A DNA stretch of 64,000 nt, from assembly GCF_027451485.1 (NCBI RefSeq), contig NZ_DAIDJE010000048.1, forward strand, positions 1 to 64,000, given 5' to 3'. Positions 26,999 to 62,110 of this stretch are shown piece after piece. This stretch comes from Bradyrhizobium sp. GTDB lineage: Bacteria > Pseudomonadota > Alphaproteobacteria > Rhizobiales > Xanthobacteraceae. The notes beneath the pieces are model-generated. The model saw only the letters and a program-made list of their open reading frames with translations, ran no database searches and had not been told where the DNA came from. How positions within the stretch are numbered: position 1 is the stretch's first letter; each line of letters begins with the position of its first letter. The position numbers were made by a program, and so were the translations under genes.

Positions 26999-27352
26999 AT
27001 GCGTATCCTGACTCTCGCGACCACAACGTTTTTCGTAACCGCGGCAGCCGCGGCTGCCCACGCCCACGCTTTTCTCGATCACGCCGAACCGCGGGTGGGA
27101 AGCACCGTCCCCTCCGCTCCCAGGGAAGTCGTGCTGACATTCTCCGAGAGCCTGGAGCCGGCATTCAGTTCGGTCGAGGTGAGCGACGCCAGCGGCCACA
27201 GCGTCGGCCAAGGCAAACCAAGGATAAGCGCGACCACCATGCGGGTCGGCCTCAAGCCGCTGCCGCCGGGCACGTACCGCGTTCGCTGGCATGTTCTATC
27301 GGTAGATACCCATACCACGGAGGGCAACTTCACCTTCCAGGTTGGCCGTTAA
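26999..27352 (+). CDS. copC: Copper resistance/uptake protein CopC
   Basis: Periplasmic copper-binding protein of 117 residues. The signal peptide ends in an AHA-type site so that the mature protein starts HAFLDHAEP, which provides the N-terminal His ligand of the Cu(II) site. The C-terminal SVDTHTTEGNFTF segment matches the conserved Asp-X-His motif. The single-domain form acts with CopD to move copper across the inner membrane. It starts 8 bases after the outer-membrane-like gene. Confidence 0.93.
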   Translation: MRILTLATTTFFVTAAAAAAHAHAFLDHAEPRVGSTVPSAPREVVLTFSESLEPAFSSVEVSDASGHSVGQGKPRISATTMRVGLKPLPPGTYRVRWHVLSVDTHTTEGNFTFQVGR

Positions 27353-27430
27353 CTGTCCGCCCGCTTCCGACATCAGCCCCGCTCAGCGGGTCGTATGCGC
27401 GGCCGGCTTCCTCCTTCCGGCCAACGCTCA

Positions 27431-28420
27431 ATGGAGAGCATGTTGATCGATCCGCTGATTGTTGTGCGGGACCTCCACCTGGCGTCGACGATCGCCGTCG
27501 CCGGCGTGATCTTCTTTGACCTCTTCATCGCCACGCCGCTCCGGCGAACGGGATCGCCGTCCACCAAAGCAGGAGTGGCCTTGCAATCCTCCCGCGGGAA
27601 AATTCTTTGGATCGGCCTGGCGTTGTCGATTGTATCCGCGCTGGCCTGGCTGTGCCTGGTATCCATGCGGATCGTCCACGAGGACTTCAACGACGTTTTG
27701 ACCGACGGCACGGCCTGGCTCGTGCTGACGCAAACCCAATTCGGCTTGGCCTGGCAAATGCGGCTGCTGCTCGGCGTCGGGCTTGCTGCCTGCTTGCTCA
27801 TGCAGAGAGCAACCGGCAGCCGCGTCGCCAATGTCCTGGCGATTTTCGCGAGCTTGCTTGCCGCGGCGTATCTCGGTTCTCTTGCCTTTGCGGGCCATGG
27901 CGCGAAAGGGCTCGGCCTCGAGCACAACATCCATCTTGCCGCCGATTTTCTGCACCTGATCGCAGCCGGTCTGTGGCTCGGCGCACTCGCGCCGCTGCTG
28001 CTCTGGCTCGTCTATCTCTGCCGCTTTCAGGAAAACGGCTGGGCGTCCGCCGCGGCTCGCGCGGCCGGCAGCTTCTCGCTGATTGGTATTTTTGCCGTCG
28101 GAATCCTGCTGGTCAGCGGGCTCGTCAATGCCGCCTTCCTGCTCGGCGGGATGCACAGCCTGATCAACACTCCTTATGGCCGCCTGCTGCTCCTGAAGGT
28201 CGTGCTGTTCGCCGCCATGGTAGGCTTGGCTGGAATTAACCGGCAGTACCTTCTTCCCCGCCTGTCCAGCGACTTGCATGCCGACGGCTCCTCCGTTGCC
28301 CTCCGCTGGCTGATCCGCAGCGCGCTGCTCGAAATTGCGCTTGGTCTTGCGATCGTCTGCATTGTCGGCGTGCTCGGCATCATGCCTCCGGCCGCTGACA
28401 TGGCCGCCCACATACACTGA
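27431..28420 (+). CDS. copD: Copper transport membrane protein CopD
   Basis: A 329-residue polytopic inner-membrane protein with about eight hydrophobic helices. Family features include LASTIAVAGVIFFDLF in helix 1, the HNIHLAADFLHLIAAGLWLG segment near 175-195 and the C-terminal RYL-type helices. It pairs with CopC to import copper. The start at 27431 opens the first helix directly and follows a purine-poor region, so initiation at the second Met (27440) is also possible. It is the last gene of the plus-strand copper operon. Confidence 0.9.
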   Translation: MESMLIDPLIVVRDLHLASTIAVAGVIFFDLFIATPLRRTGSPSTKAGVALQSSRGKILWIGLALSIVSALAWLCLVSMRIVHEDFNDVLTDGTAWLVLTQTQFGLAWQMRLLLGVGLAACLLMQRATGSRVANVLAIFASLLAAAYLGSLAFAGHGAKGLGLEHNIHLAADFLHLIAAGLWLGALAPLLLWLVYLCRFQENGWASAAARAAGSFSLIGIFAVGILLVSGLVNAAFLLGGMHSLINTPYGRLLLLKVVLFAAMVGLAGINRQYLLPRLSSDLHADGSSVALRWLIRSALLEIALGLAIVCIVGVLGIMPPAADMAAHIH

Positions 28421-42249: not shown

Positions 42250-42738
42250 TCAAGTCTTTCCCAGCTTGCAGTCCGGCGGCATGACGCTGGCGGATATGAA
42301 GGATTTCTTCACCCAGTCCTGGGTGACGGTGCCGTAGGTCGCGAGATAGGTGGGCTCGGACTGGTTCTTCTCGCAGAGAAACGGCAGATGCGGCTTCAGG
42401 TCGTAGTCGCAGGAGGCGAGCCATTCCCGCCGGTCCGAAAAGGCGGCGAAGGCTTCCTCGCATGCATAAAGGAAATACGACACGAAGCTTTCGTACTGGA
42501 CCTGAAGATCATGCCCGCCCGCCTTGATCGCCGCGTAATCGGGCGATGAAAACTTCGGGTTCTTGAAAGCAAGATCGGTGTAGGCAAGAAACGCCTGCCG
42601 CGCGGCGACGGCGCGGTTGTTGGAACGGATTTCGTTGATCTGGAACAGGATCGCGACAAAGCCGAGCAGCGCCACGGCCGCCTGCGCCATCTGCGCCAGC
42701 GTCCCGAACTTCTGCCAGAATGTTGCGGGCAGCGCCAT
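42250..42738 (-). CDS. Unknown one-helix protein inside the nuo operon
   Basis: A 162-residue protein between nuoF and nuoG, 5 and 7 bases from its neighbours, so it must be co-transcribed. One membrane helix (about residues 17-33) is near the N-terminus, followed by a soluble domain with Cys at 93, 110, 122 and 157 and many aromatic residues. No iron-sulfur or known domain pattern was found. A short N-terminus before the helix suggests a signal anchor, with the domain outside or inside undetermined. It is a candidate accessory subunit or assembly factor of complex I; that is inference from position. Confidence 0.8.
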   Translation of the reverse strand: MALPATFWQKFGTLAQMAQAAVALLGFVAILFQINEIRSNNRAVAARQAFLAYTDLAFKNPKFSSPDYAAIKAGGHDLQVQYESFVSYFLYACEEAFAAFSDRREWLASCDYDLKPHLPFLCEKNQSEPTYLATYGTVTQDWVKKSFISASVMPPDCKLGKT

Positions 42739-42743
42739 ATATC

Positions 42744-44069
42744 CTACTCCGCCGCGACCATATGTTGGGGGTCAAGAATGCCCTGATCGTCGAGGTCGGC
42801 CTTATGCGAATATTGATCGATGCGTTCTTCGATCTCATGACGGAAATGCGCGATCAGGCCCTGGATCGGCCAGGCTGCGGCATCACCGAGCGCGCAGATG
42901 GTGTGGCCCTCGACCTGCTTGGTGACTTCCAGCAGCATGTCGATTTCGCGCTTGTGGGCACGACCTTCCGCCATGCGGGTCAAGACGCGCCACATCCACC
43001 CCGTGCCTTCGCGGCAAGGCGTGCACTGGCCACAGCTCTCATGCTTGTAGAAATAGGAGATGCGGGCGATCGCGCGGATGAGGTCGGTCGATTTGTCCAT
43101 CACGATCACGGCGGCGGTGCCAAGCCCCGAGCGCAGCTTTCCGAGACTGTCGAAATCCATCGGCGTGTCGATGATCTGCTCGGCCGGCACCATGCGCACC
43201 GACGAGCCGCCGGGAATTACCGCCTTCAGATTATCCCAGCCGCCGCGAATGCCGCCGCAATGTTTTTCGATCAGTTCGCGGAACGGAATGCCCATCGCCT
43301 CTTCGACGTTGCATGGCCGCTGCACGTGACCTGAGATGCAGAACAGCTTGGTGCCGACATTGTTCGGCCGGCCGATGGCGGCGAACCAGGCTGCCCCCCG
43401 GCGCAGGATATCGGGGGCGACGGCGATCGACTCGACGTTGTTCACCGTCGTTGGGCAGCCGAACAGCCCAACATTGGCCGGGAACGGCGGCTTCAGCCGC
43501 GGCTGGCCCTTCTTGCCTTCGAGGCTTTCCAGGAGCGCCGTCTCTTCGCCGCAGATATAGGCGCCGGCGCCGTGAGTGACGTAGAGATCGAACGGCCAGC
43601 CATGGACGTTATCCTTGCCGATCAGCTTGGCCTCGTAGGCCTGGTCGACCGCGGCCTGAAGATGCTCCCGCTCGCGGATGAACTCGCCGCGCACGTAGAT
43701 GTAGCACGCGTGCGCGCCCATCGCGAAGCTCGCGAGCAGGCAACCCTCGATCAGCAGATGCGGATCGTGCCGCATGATCTCGCGGTCCTTGCAGGTGCCG
43801 GGCTCGGATTCGTCGGCGTTGACCACGAGATAGCTCGGGCGCCCGTCCTTGGATTCCTTCGGCATGAAGGACCATTTCATCCCGGTCGGGAATCCGGCGC
43901 CGCCGCGGCCGCGCAGGCCGGAGGCCTTCATCTCGTTGATGATCCAGTCGCGCCCCTTCTCGATGATCGCCTTGGTTCCATCCCAGGCGCCGCGACGCCG
44001 AGCACCCTCGAGGCCCCAGTCGTGCAGGCCGTAGAGATTTTTGAAGATGCGGTCCTTATCCTCGAGCAT
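42744..44069 (-). CDS. nuoF: NADH-quinone oxidoreductase subunit F
   Basis: NADH- and FMN-binding subunit with cluster N3, 441 residues. The Gly-rich FMN/NADH region is [13 protein letters not shown] and the cluster ligands are in [12 protein letters not shown]. It takes hydride from NADH and passes electrons to NuoE and NuoG. Its start shares one base with the nuoE stop, indicating coupling. Confidence 0.97.
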
Positions 44070-44680
44070 CAGGTGGTTTCCTTCAGCGTAGTCGGTCCGC
44101 CGACAGGCGCGGAGAACTGGCGATCAATCTGCGGCCCGGGCTTCGGCGGCTTGCCGGTGGCAAAGCCGTCCAGCACCTTGCCGAAGCTCTCCTTGGTCAA
44201 GTCCTCATAGGTATCCTTCCCGATCAGGACCATCGGTGCGTTCACACAGGCGCCGAGACACTCGACCTCCTCCCAGGAAAAATTGCCGTCCTTCGACAGA
44301 TGGAAGGGATCGTGATGGATCCGGCTCTGGCAGACCTCGATCAGATCGCCCGCCCCGCGCAGGCGGCACGGCGTCGTGCCGCAGACCTGCACGTGCGCCT
44401 TCTTGCCGACCGGCGCCAGCTGGAACATGGTGTAGAAGGTCGCAACTTCGAGCACGCGGATATAGGGCATGTCGAGCAGGTCGGCGACCGCGCGGATCGC
44501 CGCTTCCGACACCCAGCCCTCGTGCTGCTCCTGCACCCGCCACAGGATCGCGATGACGGCCGAGGCCTGACGTCCGGGCGGATACTTGGCGATTTCCTTC
44601 TTCGCCCATTCAAGATTCTCCGGCGTGAACGTAAAGCTCGCAGGCTGGACTTCCTTGGGCGCAAGGCGACGAACGGACAT
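44069..44680 (-). CDS. nuoE: NADH-quinone oxidoreductase subunit E
   Basis: Thioredoxin-like [2Fe-2S] subunit (cluster N1a), 203 residues. The ligand pattern is [11 protein letters not shown] and CLGACVNAP. The C-terminal tail beyond the fold is longer than in E. coli. It follows the FkbM methyltransferase gene by 13 bases. Confidence 0.96.
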
Positions 44681-44693
44681 CGTATTCAGTCTC

Positions 44694-45656
44694 TCATTGC
44701 ATGCGGCGGCCGGCGCTGGCGTTCAGGGCAGCAATTCGCTCCTGCCAGAACGCGCTTGACGTGCCGAAGACGTTGTAGCCGATGTGGGAGGAAACCTTGA
44801 TGCGGTCGAGGATCGAAAGCTCGGTCACGGTCTCAAGGCGGTTGGAACGGGGGTCGTAGACGATCAGCTGAAGCGGTGTCTGATCGAGGATATAGCGCGA
44901 CACGGTGTGGTCGGGGTCGTTGCCGTGCTCCTCGCAAATGATCACGCTGTCGCCGGCAAGCAATTTCGTGCCGCCCTTGATGGCGTCGATTTCGACGCCC
45001 TCGACGTCGAGCTTGATAAGGTACTTGCCGCCCGGCGCGATCCTGCCTTCAGCGAGGAGATCATCGAGCGCCATCACCGGCACTTCTTCGCCGCCGACCG
45101 TGCCGCCGGCGATGCTGAACGCCTCGTGCTTGGTACCCGACAGCCGAGCGGTGCCCTTCGCAGCGCCGATGGCGCACTTCAGCGTCTCAAAGCGGCTGCC
45201 ATTGACCTTCGCGTTATTGGCGAGCTTGGCAAAATTTTCCGAGGATGGTTCGAAGGCGATAGCCTTGTGCGCGCCGAAGGGCTTGCTCGTCACCAGTACC
45301 GACCAGTAGCCGTAATTGGCGCCGCAATCGAGCAGCGTGTAGTCGACATCGACGGAATGACGGAACAGCAATTCGAGTTCGTCTTCGTAATGATAGGAAC
45401 GGTCGAGCAGCTTGCTCCAATAGCCGTCACCATAGGGAAACTCGAACGTCGCATCCTCATTTAGCCTGATGGCGATGTTCCGCTCCGGCAGCGTCTTGCG
45501 CAGCAGGTTGGCGCAACCGTTGTAGCCGCGATGGAAGAAATGAGAGGAGATTTTCGAGCCCGTCACCAGCGCCAAGGCAGCCGTCCGCTCCCACAGGTTG
45601 GCCCCTTCGAGGGCGCCCGAGGCTCGGTCGAACTGGATGGGCGGCGTTGCGATCAC
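44694..45656 (-). CDS. FkbM family SAM-dependent methyltransferase within the nuo operon
   Basis: A 320-residue protein whose central domain matches FkbM-type methyltransferases. The SAM motif [14 protein letters not shown] is near residues 108-121 and the [14 protein letters not shown] motif near 215. No signal peptide or membrane helix is seen, so it is cytoplasmic. It lies between nuoD and nuoE: its ATG overlaps the nuoD stop by 4 bases and its stop is 13 bases from nuoE. The family normally O-methylates sugars, phenols or other small molecules, so its target here is unknown. Possible targets are a quinone precursor, a complex I subunit or an unrelated molecule whose gene became trapped in the operon. 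Confidence 0.88.
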
Positions 45657-46849
45657 CGATCAACCTCTCCGAACACGATGTCGAGGGAGCCGAGAATGGC
45701 CGAGACGTCGGCGAGCAGGTGGCCGCGGCAGATGAAATCCATCGCCTGCAAATGTGCAAAGCCCGGCGCGCGAATCTTGCACTTGTAGGGCTTGTTGGAC
45801 CCGTCGGCGACGAGATAGACGCCGAACTCGCCCTTCGGCGCTTCGACGGCCGCATAGACCTGACCGGCCGGGACGTGAAAACCTTCCGTGTAGAGCTTGA
45901 AGTGATGGATCAGGGCCTCCATCGAGCGCTTCATTTCGCCCCGGCGAGGCGGGAAGATTTTGTGATCCTGGATCGCCACCGGCCCCTGCCCGTCGGGGCT
46001 GCGCAATTTGGCGATGCACTGCTTCATGATTTTCACCGACTGCCGCATTTCTTCCATGCGGATGCAGTAGCGGTCGTAGCAGTCGCCGTTTTTGCCGATC
46101 GGAATATCGAAATCCATCTCGGCATAGCATTCGTAAGGCTGGGCCTTGCGAAGATCCCAGGCCGCGCCGGAGCCGCGCACCATGACGCCCGAGAAACCCC
46201 ATTCCCAGGCCTGTTGCAGCGTGACGACGCCGATGTCGACGTTGCGCTGCTTGAAGATGCGGTTGCCGGTCAGCAAGGTTTCGAGGTCGTCGATGACCGT
46301 CGGGAACGCGTCGCACCAGGTGTCGATATCGTCGATCAGTTTCGCCGGCAGATCCTGGTGCACGCCGCCGATGCGGAAATAGGCCGCATGCATGCGCGAG
46401 CCCGAAGCGCGCTCGTAGAACACCATCAGCTTCTCGCGTTCCTCAAAGCCCCACAGCGGCGGGGTGAGCGCGCCGACATCCATCGCCTGTGTCGTGACGT
46501 TGAGAAGATGCGAAAGGATGCGTCCGATCTCGCAATACAGAACCCGGATCAACTGGCCGCGGCGCGGCACCTCGATGCCGAGCAGCTTTTCCGCCGCAAG
46601 GCAGAATGCGTGCTCCTGATTCATCGGCGCGACGTAGTCCAGCCGGTCGAAATACGGAATCGCCTGAAGATAGGTCTTGGCCTCGATCAGCTTTTCGGTG
46701 CCGCGGTGAAGCAGGCCGATATGGGGGTCGACGCGGGCGACGACCTCGCCGTCCAGTTCCAGCACGAGACGCAGCACACCGTGCGCCGCCGGATGCTGCG
46801 GGCCAAAATTGATGGTGAAGTTGCGCAAGCTTTGCGGTTGCTCGTTCAT
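45653..46849 (-). CDS. nuoD: NADH-quinone oxidoreductase subunit D
   Basis: The 49-kDa subunit that lines the quinone site with NuoB, 398 residues. The [20 protein letters not shown] segment near the N-terminus contains the conserved quinone-contact His, and [18 protein letters not shown] is also diagnostic. NuoC and NuoD are separate genes here, unlike the E. coli fusion. Its stop overlaps the methyltransferase ATG and its ATG overlaps the nuoC stop. Confidence 0.97.
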
Positions 46850-60604: not shown

Positions 60605-60799
60605 AAGAAGAGCATATCCGCCGCCGTGCCGCGGGCAGCGGCTTATAACATGCGCTGCAAGCCGACAGCAAATGCAGGTCGCGGCCACCGCAATCCAACA
60701 TTCGCACCACTTTCCAACCGGCCCCTCATGCAACCGACAGGAACTTCAATTCGCCGCACTGGCCGCAATACCATGCAAAGACTGGCCGGCATCAACGAT

Positions 60800-62110
60800 A
60801 TGTCTGATCACAAACCGAATGGCATTTTTCGACCGAACCGGCGCGAGGTCATGGCCGGTCTCGCGGCCGCCACGCTGCAAGCACCGAAGCGCGCAGTGGC
60901 GGCGGAAACACCGCTTGCACTTCGCTGCAGGGAAGCCTCGCTCGGCTTACGGGAAACAGGCGCGGCAACACAGACCTGGTCGCTCGGCGATCAGCCGCTT
61001 CATTTCAAGCGCGGCGATCGTCGAGAGGTTACACTGGTCAATGATCTCACGGTTTCGGTCGCGCTCAACTGGCGCGGCCTCGACGGCGCGGCCGCGCTTG
61101 AGCCTCTGCTGGCGCGTTCTCAACTCGCGCCGTCGGCGCGCGACACCTTCGACCTGCCGTTGCGCGACGCCGGGACTTATCTGTGCGATGCTGGCTTGCT
61201 CGGCGACGGCGCGTCGCGGCCATTCCGGGGACTGCCGCTCATTGTGCACGAGAGCGAGCCGGTCGAGGTCGATCGCGACGAGGTGCTCTTCATCGAGGGC
61301 TGGCGGCTGAAGCCGGATGGCACCGCGATCGCACCCGGCACTGATCCCGCGGGCACGCAGGGGATCTACACCGCCAACGGGCTGCCTTTGCGCGAACTTG
61401 AGTTTCGCCGCGGTGAACGCTTGAGGATTCGCTTCATCAATGCTCTCGAGCGTCGGACGATCGCGCTGAAAATGCTGTACCACCGCATCACTGTGATGGC
61501 GCTGGACGGGCAGCCGGCCGAGCCGTTTATGGCGCTCAATGGCGCCTTCACCTTGGCGCCGGGCGGCCGGGCGGACGTCTTTGTCGATGTCGCGCAAGAC
61601 TCCGGCAACACGCCGATCCTCATGCATGACGGAGAAGCGGTTCACCTGATCGGCCGCATGGTCCTGTCAGAGGAGACCCCAATCCGTTCTCAGACCCTGC
61701 CGCCTCCATCCGCCCTGCCCTCGAATGGCTTGCCCGCACGGCTCGACCTCAAGGCCGCATTGCGGGTCGATCTGCCCTTTGGCGACGAACAAAAGAACTG
61801 GCTTCGGCCGGACAGTTTCACACCGACGGCACCGCCCGTCTTTCGCGCCAAGGCCGGCCGCACCGTGGTGCTCTCGCTGATCAACCGCGCGAAAGTGACA
61901 GTCGTCATTCACGTGCACGGGCATCATTTCCGGCTGCTCGACCGGCTCGACGACGGCTGGAAGCCGTTCTGGGCGGATACGATCGCAATCGATGCCGGAC
62001 AGACCCTGCGCGTTGCCTTCGCGGCCGAATATGCCGGGCATTGGCTGATCGAAGCGGCAGAGACGAATTGGAGCGCACCGAAACTCCTGCGCTGGTTCAG
62101 CGTCGAGTAA
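60800..62110 (+). CDS. Multicopper-oxidase-like protein lacking most copper ligands
   Basis: A 436-residue protein with a twin-arginine-type leader (NRREVMAGL near residue 13-21, then AVAAE). It has two or three cupredoxin domains of the multicopper oxidase fold. The usual HWHGL motif is replaced by NWRGLDG (about 90) and the YHSH-type motif by LCDAG (about 128). One HVHGHH cluster near 371 remains, but the final HCHIxxH motif is absent at the C-terminus. It therefore resembles copper-free family members such as FtsP/SufI. The start at 60800 has a weak ribosome binding site; earlier in-frame starts exist. Confidence 0.8.
   Translation: MSDHKPNGIFRPNRREVMAGLAAATLQAPKRAVAAETPLALRCREASLGLRETGAATQTWSLGDQPLHFKRGDRREVTLVNDLTVSVALNWRGLDGAAALEPLLARSQLAPSARDTFDLPLRDAGTYLCDAGLLGDGASRPFRGLPLIVHESEPVEVDRDEVLFIEGWRLKPDGTAIAPGTDPAGTQGIYTANGLPLRELEFRRGERLRIRFINALERRTIALKMLYHRITVMALDGQPAEPFMALNGAFTLAPGGRADVFVDVAQDSGNTPILMHDGEAVHLIGRMVLSEETPIRSQTLPPPSALPSNGLPARLDLKAALRVDLPFGDEQKNWLRPDSFTPTAPPVFRAKAGRTVVLSLINRAKVTVVIHVHGHHFRLLDRLDDGWKPFWADTIAIDAGQTLRVAFAAEYAGHWLIEAAETNWSAPKLLRWFSVE

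Follow-up and report, generated by a model that had tools for sequence, protein, structure and literature searches.

An FkbM-family methyltransferase gene between nuoD and nuoE in Bradyrhizobium and its copper-associated paralogues

Why does the complex I operon of a Bradyrhizobium sp. carry a methyltransferase gene between nuoD and nuoE, and does the encoded enzyme act on complex I? The question is raised by a stretch of 64,000 nucleotides (hereafter the window), for which an earlier note, made from the letters alone, had considered NuoD, a quinone or a lipid as the target. We addressed it by asking what the gene encodes, where it is kept or lost, what else occupies the same junction and in which company its closest homologs are found.

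The gene, its operon place and its protein family

The open reading frame (44694-45656, minus strand) encodes 320 amino acids from a GTG start at 45656. It overlaps the stop of nuoD by 4 nt (45653-45656, GTGA on the minus strand) and is followed by a 13-nt spacer (44681-44693, minus strand) before nuoE, which begins at 44680; these positions are as the earlier note had given them, to which we add the strand. nuoD (45653-46849, minus strand, 398 aa; PF00346, E 3.3e-122; NF004739, E 4.5e-191) and nuoE (44069-44680, minus strand, 203 aa; PF01257, E 2.3e-52; NF005724, E 1.4e-116) are well supported, and with Pfam and NCBIfam the neighbors score as NuoD, NuoE, NuoF, NuoC, NuoB, and NuoG. Contrary to the earlier note, the operon is not otherwise canonical, since a second, foreign frame of 162 aa lies between nuoF and nuoG (42250-42738, minus strand). 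This ORF has no Pfam or NCBIfam match and is matched in 14 of the 80 named loci (taken as the best 80 from 220 relatives), with a median dN/dS of 0.20; the nuoF-nuoG junction may be another place at which this operon takes up cargo.

By alignment estimate, the overlap between the methyltransferase start and the nuoD stop is 4 nt long in 68 of the 80 named loci and 1 nt long in another 11, and the spacer before nuoE measures 10 to 14 nt in all 80; only L048 has a longer interval, of 307 nt, between nuoD and the methyltransferase gene. The overlap fits translational coupling, and the methyltransferase is probably translated together with nuoD. This much stands of the co-expression with complex I that the earlier note had asserted outright and that is here a prediction. 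Taken alone, the 4-nt overlap is weak evidence of purpose, because a TGA stop supplies a candidate NTG start to most frames that are open in that register, and because the ORF finder picks the first such candidate.

The assignment to the FkbM family holds, with scores above the curated cut-offs for both PF05050 (56.1 bits versus 22.7; E 6.7e-15) and TIGR01444 fkbM_fam (76.3 bits versus 37.7; E 3.1e-21). At E <= 0.001, PF05050 is the only Pfam domain of the 320-aa protein, PF02636 (the NDUFAF7/MidA domain) is not found, and neither Pfam nor NCBIfam gives a UbiE or UbiG match. At the same threshold the genome holds two FkbM-domain genes, the second of them on contig 106. In 49 aligned sequences, the residues of the DCGANYG and KLDVEGVE segments, the SAM-binding and family motifs, are invariant or nearly so. 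Residues 110 to 119 (45300-45329, minus strand), which we take to be motif I, include D110, G112, A113, and G116 as invariant positions and N114, W118, and S119 at 90% or more; in the family motif KLDVEGVE (residues 215 to 222; 44991-45014, minus strand), L216, D217, G220, and E222 are invariant. The subfamily to which the protein belongs also has in common an N-terminal segment with FDRxTG, a C-terminal GYNVFxTxS..W block and an EEHGND segment (residues 242 to 247; 44916-44933, minus strand), the last occurring in all four types of locus described below, with at least 95% conservation of E242, H244, G245, and D247 among 43 sequences of the subfamily.

An AlphaFold2 model built on the 49 sequences reached a pLDDT of 91.3 and a pTM of 0.90, with a weak loop at residues 177 to 185, and it describes a class I SAM-dependent methyltransferase. 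Its top Foldseek match was the FkbM protein 2py6 of Methylobacillus flagellatus (E 4.4e-07, with a TM-score of only 0.39 by query length), which was also matched by sequence profile (E 3.6e-08). In VIA-align, 2py6 scored Z 13.4 over 166 residues, at rank 7 and tied with other class I methyltransferases, and the best Z, 14.2, fell to small-molecule O-methyltransferases such as COMT. The fold cannot name the substrate, because many class I methyltransferases fit the model at Z 12 to 14. The enzyme is thus an FkbM protein by domain scores, fold and sequence profile, and it differs from other FkbM methyltransferases in sitting inside a nuo operon and in having the FDRxTG and GYNVFxTxS..W regions of its subfamily.

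Distribution, selection and loss

The earlier note had proposed a survey of nuo operons in Bradyrhizobium and its relatives, with confinement of the gene to one or two strains as the outcome that would speak against it; the gene is instead held at this site across many strains. At E <= 1e-20, 198 of 391 genomes of the family have a match, among them 103 of the 107 sampled genomes of the genus. Two of these matches (G350 and G364) are not of the nuo type, which leaves a nuo-type copy in 101 of 107, a count taken from the listing in which the site was checked against nuoD and nuoE in the fetched genomes and inferred from the score in the remainder. The order nuoD-gene-nuoE was found in 31 of 31 loci from 30 genomes (L002 to L032, with the window's own gene behind both L002 and L003). 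All 80 named loci show it as well; these were taken as the best 80 from 220 relatives, are tilted to close copies and may repeat genomes of the 107-genome count. Coordinates from 80 chosen genomes show the same placement, with nuoD on one side and nuoE on the other, in 14 further genera. Few genomes beyond the family have the gene: 5 of 385 class genomes match at E <= 1e-20 and 380 do not, two of the five belonging to the same genus and three showing 30 to 35% identity, and a profile at E <= 1e-40 matched 12 of 299 phylum genomes, 9 of them in the same family. One record in the methyltransferase tree, L107, titled Frankia sp. RB7, falls inside Bradyrhizobium, and its label is probably wrong.

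The median dN/dS of the methyltransferase is 0.15 (400 sampled pairs from the 80 named loci), against 0.05 to 0.12 for NuoB to NuoF, and we therefore regard the protein as being in use, under purifying selection. Among close relatives, the gene is not kept wherever the host's complex I is. It is absent from the site, with nuoD and nuoE intact, in six Bradyrhizobium genomes (G349, G350, G364, G365, G383, and G389), in three genomes of g40 and in four of g25, and in these genomes nuoE begins 44 to 80 nt past the last nuoD codon. In G043 a 205-aa remnant persists, with an internal deletion of about residues 122 to 236. The tree thus has at least three parts in which the gene is missing or broken, namely, a Bradyrhizobium subclade, the g25 and g40 genera, and G043. 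In a NuoD tree, made by a quick method and with many weak forks, the six noncarrier Bradyrhizobium genomes are nested among carriers, and 9 changes of carrier label are needed, at least 5 of them forced by starred branches. The simplest reading is that the Bradyrhizobium genomes without the gene represent loss rather than gain, a direction that we infer from this nesting. In four of the six, no homolog was found anywhere in the genome at E <= 1e-8.

Other occupants of the junction and other homes of the subfamily

Is the nuoD-nuoE junction reserved for this enzyme? Of 139 genomes sampled from the class, 117, not counting the window's own, had nuoD and nuoE on one contig, and the gap between them was at most 100 nt in 101, 101 to 200 nt in 4 and 216 to 1152 nt in 12. 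We read 22 junctions chosen for their gaps (the ten largest of the class and twelve wide ones of the family), and in 21 of these an ORF of at least 61 aa has its start on the stop of nuoD; in 18 of the 22 no other ORF of the junction is longer, the exceptions being L238, L242, L186, and L212. These ORFs occupy the same slot with the same kind of start, and they differ from the methyltransferase in being unrelated proteins or small frames without a family. Pfam was run on ten junction proteins, eight ORFs of other genomes and two FkbM genes of g24, and the eight comprised two Uma2 proteins, one each of DUF559, Acyl_transf_3, PIN, and SnoaL, and two without a match. The PIN ORF is not in the register coupled to nuoD. 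In g24, three genomes carry a second FkbM gene in the same slot (FkbM by Pfam in two of the three), about 30% identical over the whole alignment, and a fourth genome, G023, lacks it; this gene is either an ancient ortholog or the product of a separate entry into the slot.

Some individual occupants deserve mention in their own right. Uma2 proteins, identified by Pfam, fill the slot in L205 (G044) and L190 (G021), and Uma2-like ORFs, recognized by eye, fill it in L210 (G009) and L211 (G079), all in genera without the methyltransferase there. In L242 (G395), the PIN-domain ORF has a small ORF upstream of it, which on visual inspection resembles an AbrB-type antitoxin, and both lie within the complex I operon.

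Paralogs that are 41 to 58% identical to the nuo-type protein occur in other contexts, and in the gene tree their clades match these contexts: a copper type (8 rows; support 97/100), a PCuAC type (3 rows; 99/99), and an ATP-grasp type (5 rows; 96/59). The nuo-type rows are paraphyletic, and residence in the nuo operon may be the older state, the root of this tree not being firm. A multicopper oxidase gene accompanies every one of the 9 copper-type loci (8 genomes), recognized by Pfam in L123, L124, L131, L132, and L133 and by similarity in the others; the copper-type label is partly drawn from context, and the 8 rows so labeled form one clade. The ninth locus, L264, comes from a Bradyrhizobium genome that has this copy in addition to its nuo copy, and it was called copper type from 45% identity and its context, outside the tree. 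In g10, the gene lies downstream of the gene for the chaperone PCuAC at 3 of 3 loci in three genomes (PCuAC by Pfam in L120 and L121, by similarity in L122). At 5 of 5 further loci, the next gene encodes one conserved ATP-grasp-like protein, for which the domain matches are weak (CPSase_L_D2, E 1.2e-05 in L118 and 8e-05 in L117; the other three by similarity). More distant homologs lie near a polysaccharide flippase, glycosyltransferases, a radical SAM enzyme or sulfotransferases.

Three annotated conjugative plasmids, pOC167 of Afipia carboxidovorans OM5 and those of Rhodopseudomonas sp. BAL398 and Bradyrhizobium sp. PSBB068, carry members of the same subfamily (42 to 44% identity over 94 to 97% of the query); the pOC167 and PSBB068 copies are probably L124 and L123, so that only BAL398 adds a new locus. 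Their setting differs: instead of nuo genes, the neighbors encode a heavy-metal P-type ATPase, a metal-sensitive regulator, TolC, a copper oxidase, a copper-binding protein and OpgC, with CopC and CopD also present on two of the three. The 43 subfamily sequences have 73 positions with at least 95% conservation; the nuo type has 94 conserved positions, and at 4 of these the copper type has a different residue that is conserved in its turn, which makes a common substrate class likely. The family motifs, too, are retained in the copper, PCuAC, and ATP-grasp paralogs, and the chemistry is thus probably common to the subfamily and independent of complex I. On copper resistance or multicopper oxidases together with FkbM, we found nothing on topic in the portions of the openly licensed literature available to us.

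Several observations stand beside these results. FkbM and OpgC genes occur together in copper islands of Nitrobacteraceae conjugative plasmids (L262, L263, and L261), two of which also have GNAT genes, and in Rhodopseudomonas sp. BAL398 the FkbM gene overlaps the OpgC gene by 4 nt. The window itself holds adjacent copC and copD genes (26999-28420, plus strand), about 16 kb from the methyltransferase gene, and an ORF with multicopper oxidase domains (60626-62110, plus strand; Cu-oxidase_2, E 4.9e-13). As linked partners of the methyltransferase gene, this copC-copD pair was rejected, being absent from that place in 13 of the 14 relatives fetched; the fourteenth, G199, has a CopD-like match of 32%.

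What the enzyme may act on

We consider it somewhat better than an even chance (roughly 0.57) that the gene encodes an FkbM O-methyltransferase for a small molecule or an envelope sugar or lipid, inherited as cargo of the nuo operon. The gene would have been acquired between nuoD and nuoE by an ancestor that Bradyrhizobium shares with its sister genera and would have been passed on mainly vertically as a long-resident passenger, its translation coupled to that of nuoD; the product would be an O-methylated small molecule or envelope sugar or lipid and not a modified complex I subunit, both the activity and the substrate being predicted. The envelope-glycan part of this proposal draws on neighbors (OpgC, and the glycosyltransferases near distant homologs) and on general FkbM chemistry, and a search of the openly licensed literature for sugar methylation by FkbM enzymes found nothing. 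Two observations stand against a mere passenger. Across 15 genera, and in 101 of the 107 sampled genomes of the genus, the nuo copy has kept to one site, which exceeds what one expects of a neutral passenger, and the second FkbM gene in the slot of g24 could hint at a functional pull to the site.

The same observations, together with the fixed place by nuoD and nuoE and the overlapping start, are what favors methylation of NuoD or a neighboring subunit, by which the enzyme would be an assembly or tuning factor of complex I. We regard this as improbable, because the slot accepts unrelated genes and because sister genes sit in copper-handling clusters, some on plasmids, a setting that does not suggest a Nuo subunit as the target; others lie beside the ATP-grasp-like gene. 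The intact nuoD and nuoE of relatives that lack the gene, or hold it broken, also weigh against the NuoD target considered in the earlier note. In NuoB, NuoC, NuoD, and NuoE, the Bradyrhizobium losers share no changed column with any other loss clade. The co-loss comparison flagged 38 columns in NuoF and 19 in NuoG; among the columns listed, 8 of each, the Bradyrhizobium losers retain the carriers' residue in all 8 of NuoF, which therefore look like between-genus differences, and NuoG column 4 changes from L to I in the Bradyrhizobium and g25 losers. The idea that loss of the gene went along with a change in a Nuo residue was accordingly set aside, with no column in common for NuoB to NuoE and only one in NuoG among those listed. 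The earlier note had further suggested that the enzyme would be a different solution to the methylation performed in mitochondria by NDUFAF7. Human NDUFAF7 is reported to methylate Arg85 of NDUFS2 (PMC3829151). NDUFAF7/MidA proteins are likewise SAM-dependent methyltransferases, of another Pfam family (PF02636) than the present gene (PF05050), and the Bradyrhizobium genome carries a separate PF02636 gene (E 8.8e-66); since this homolog is at hand, the canonical route would be available to the host and no different solution would be needed. We presume that the human arginine corresponds to R49 of this NuoD, and R49 is present in the NuoD of the window. In openly licensed literature we found no link of FkbM to the nuo operon or complex I and, in the portions available, nothing on topic about FkbM as a protein methyltransferase. 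PMC4859585 makes no mention of a methyltransferase, and the "unidentified reading frames" of a nuo operon are, in the part of PMC9696053 that we could draw on, not relevant to the FkbM gene.

Modification of ubiquinone or another respiratory lipid used by complex I seems to us the least probable of the alternatives. The operon does encode a quinone-reducing enzyme, and the fold resembles COMT and other small-molecule O-methyltransferases, but that fold is common to many methyltransferases, the protein matches PF05050 and TIGR01444 rather than UbiE or UbiG, the great majority of sampled class genomes have no match, and the nuo slot is without the gene in most sampled nuo-bearing genera of the family. 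Of the alternatives, we would place first, while still thinking it doubtful, that the subfamily serves copper homeostasis by protecting the envelope or the respiratory chain, the nuo copy being its housekeeping version. The constant company of multicopper oxidase at copper-type loci and of PCuAC in g10 argues for such a role; against it, the five ATP-grasp-type loci and the homologs in L265, L266, and L267 have no multicopper oxidase or PCuAC match at E <= 1e-15, the window's own copC and copD hold no fixed place among relatives, and the copper-type label owes something to context, with L264 outside the tree. A bolder variant, in which a single methylated product of an undescribed FkbM subfamily, an envelope component or a small molecule, would protect respiration against copper, and the subfamily would be wired into both the nuo operon and plasmid copper islands, is speculative, and we hold it less probable than a general role in copper homeostasis, though above the subunit target.

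We thus favor the long-resident cargo gene with a small-molecule or envelope substrate. The nuoD-nuoE slot has taken unrelated genes in several lineages, which calls for caution in reading function from operon position. The copper link of the paralogs is the most useful new lead, and an uncharacterized FkbM subfamily common to complex I operons, conjugative-plasmid copper islands and PCuAC operons offers a testable route to its substrate.
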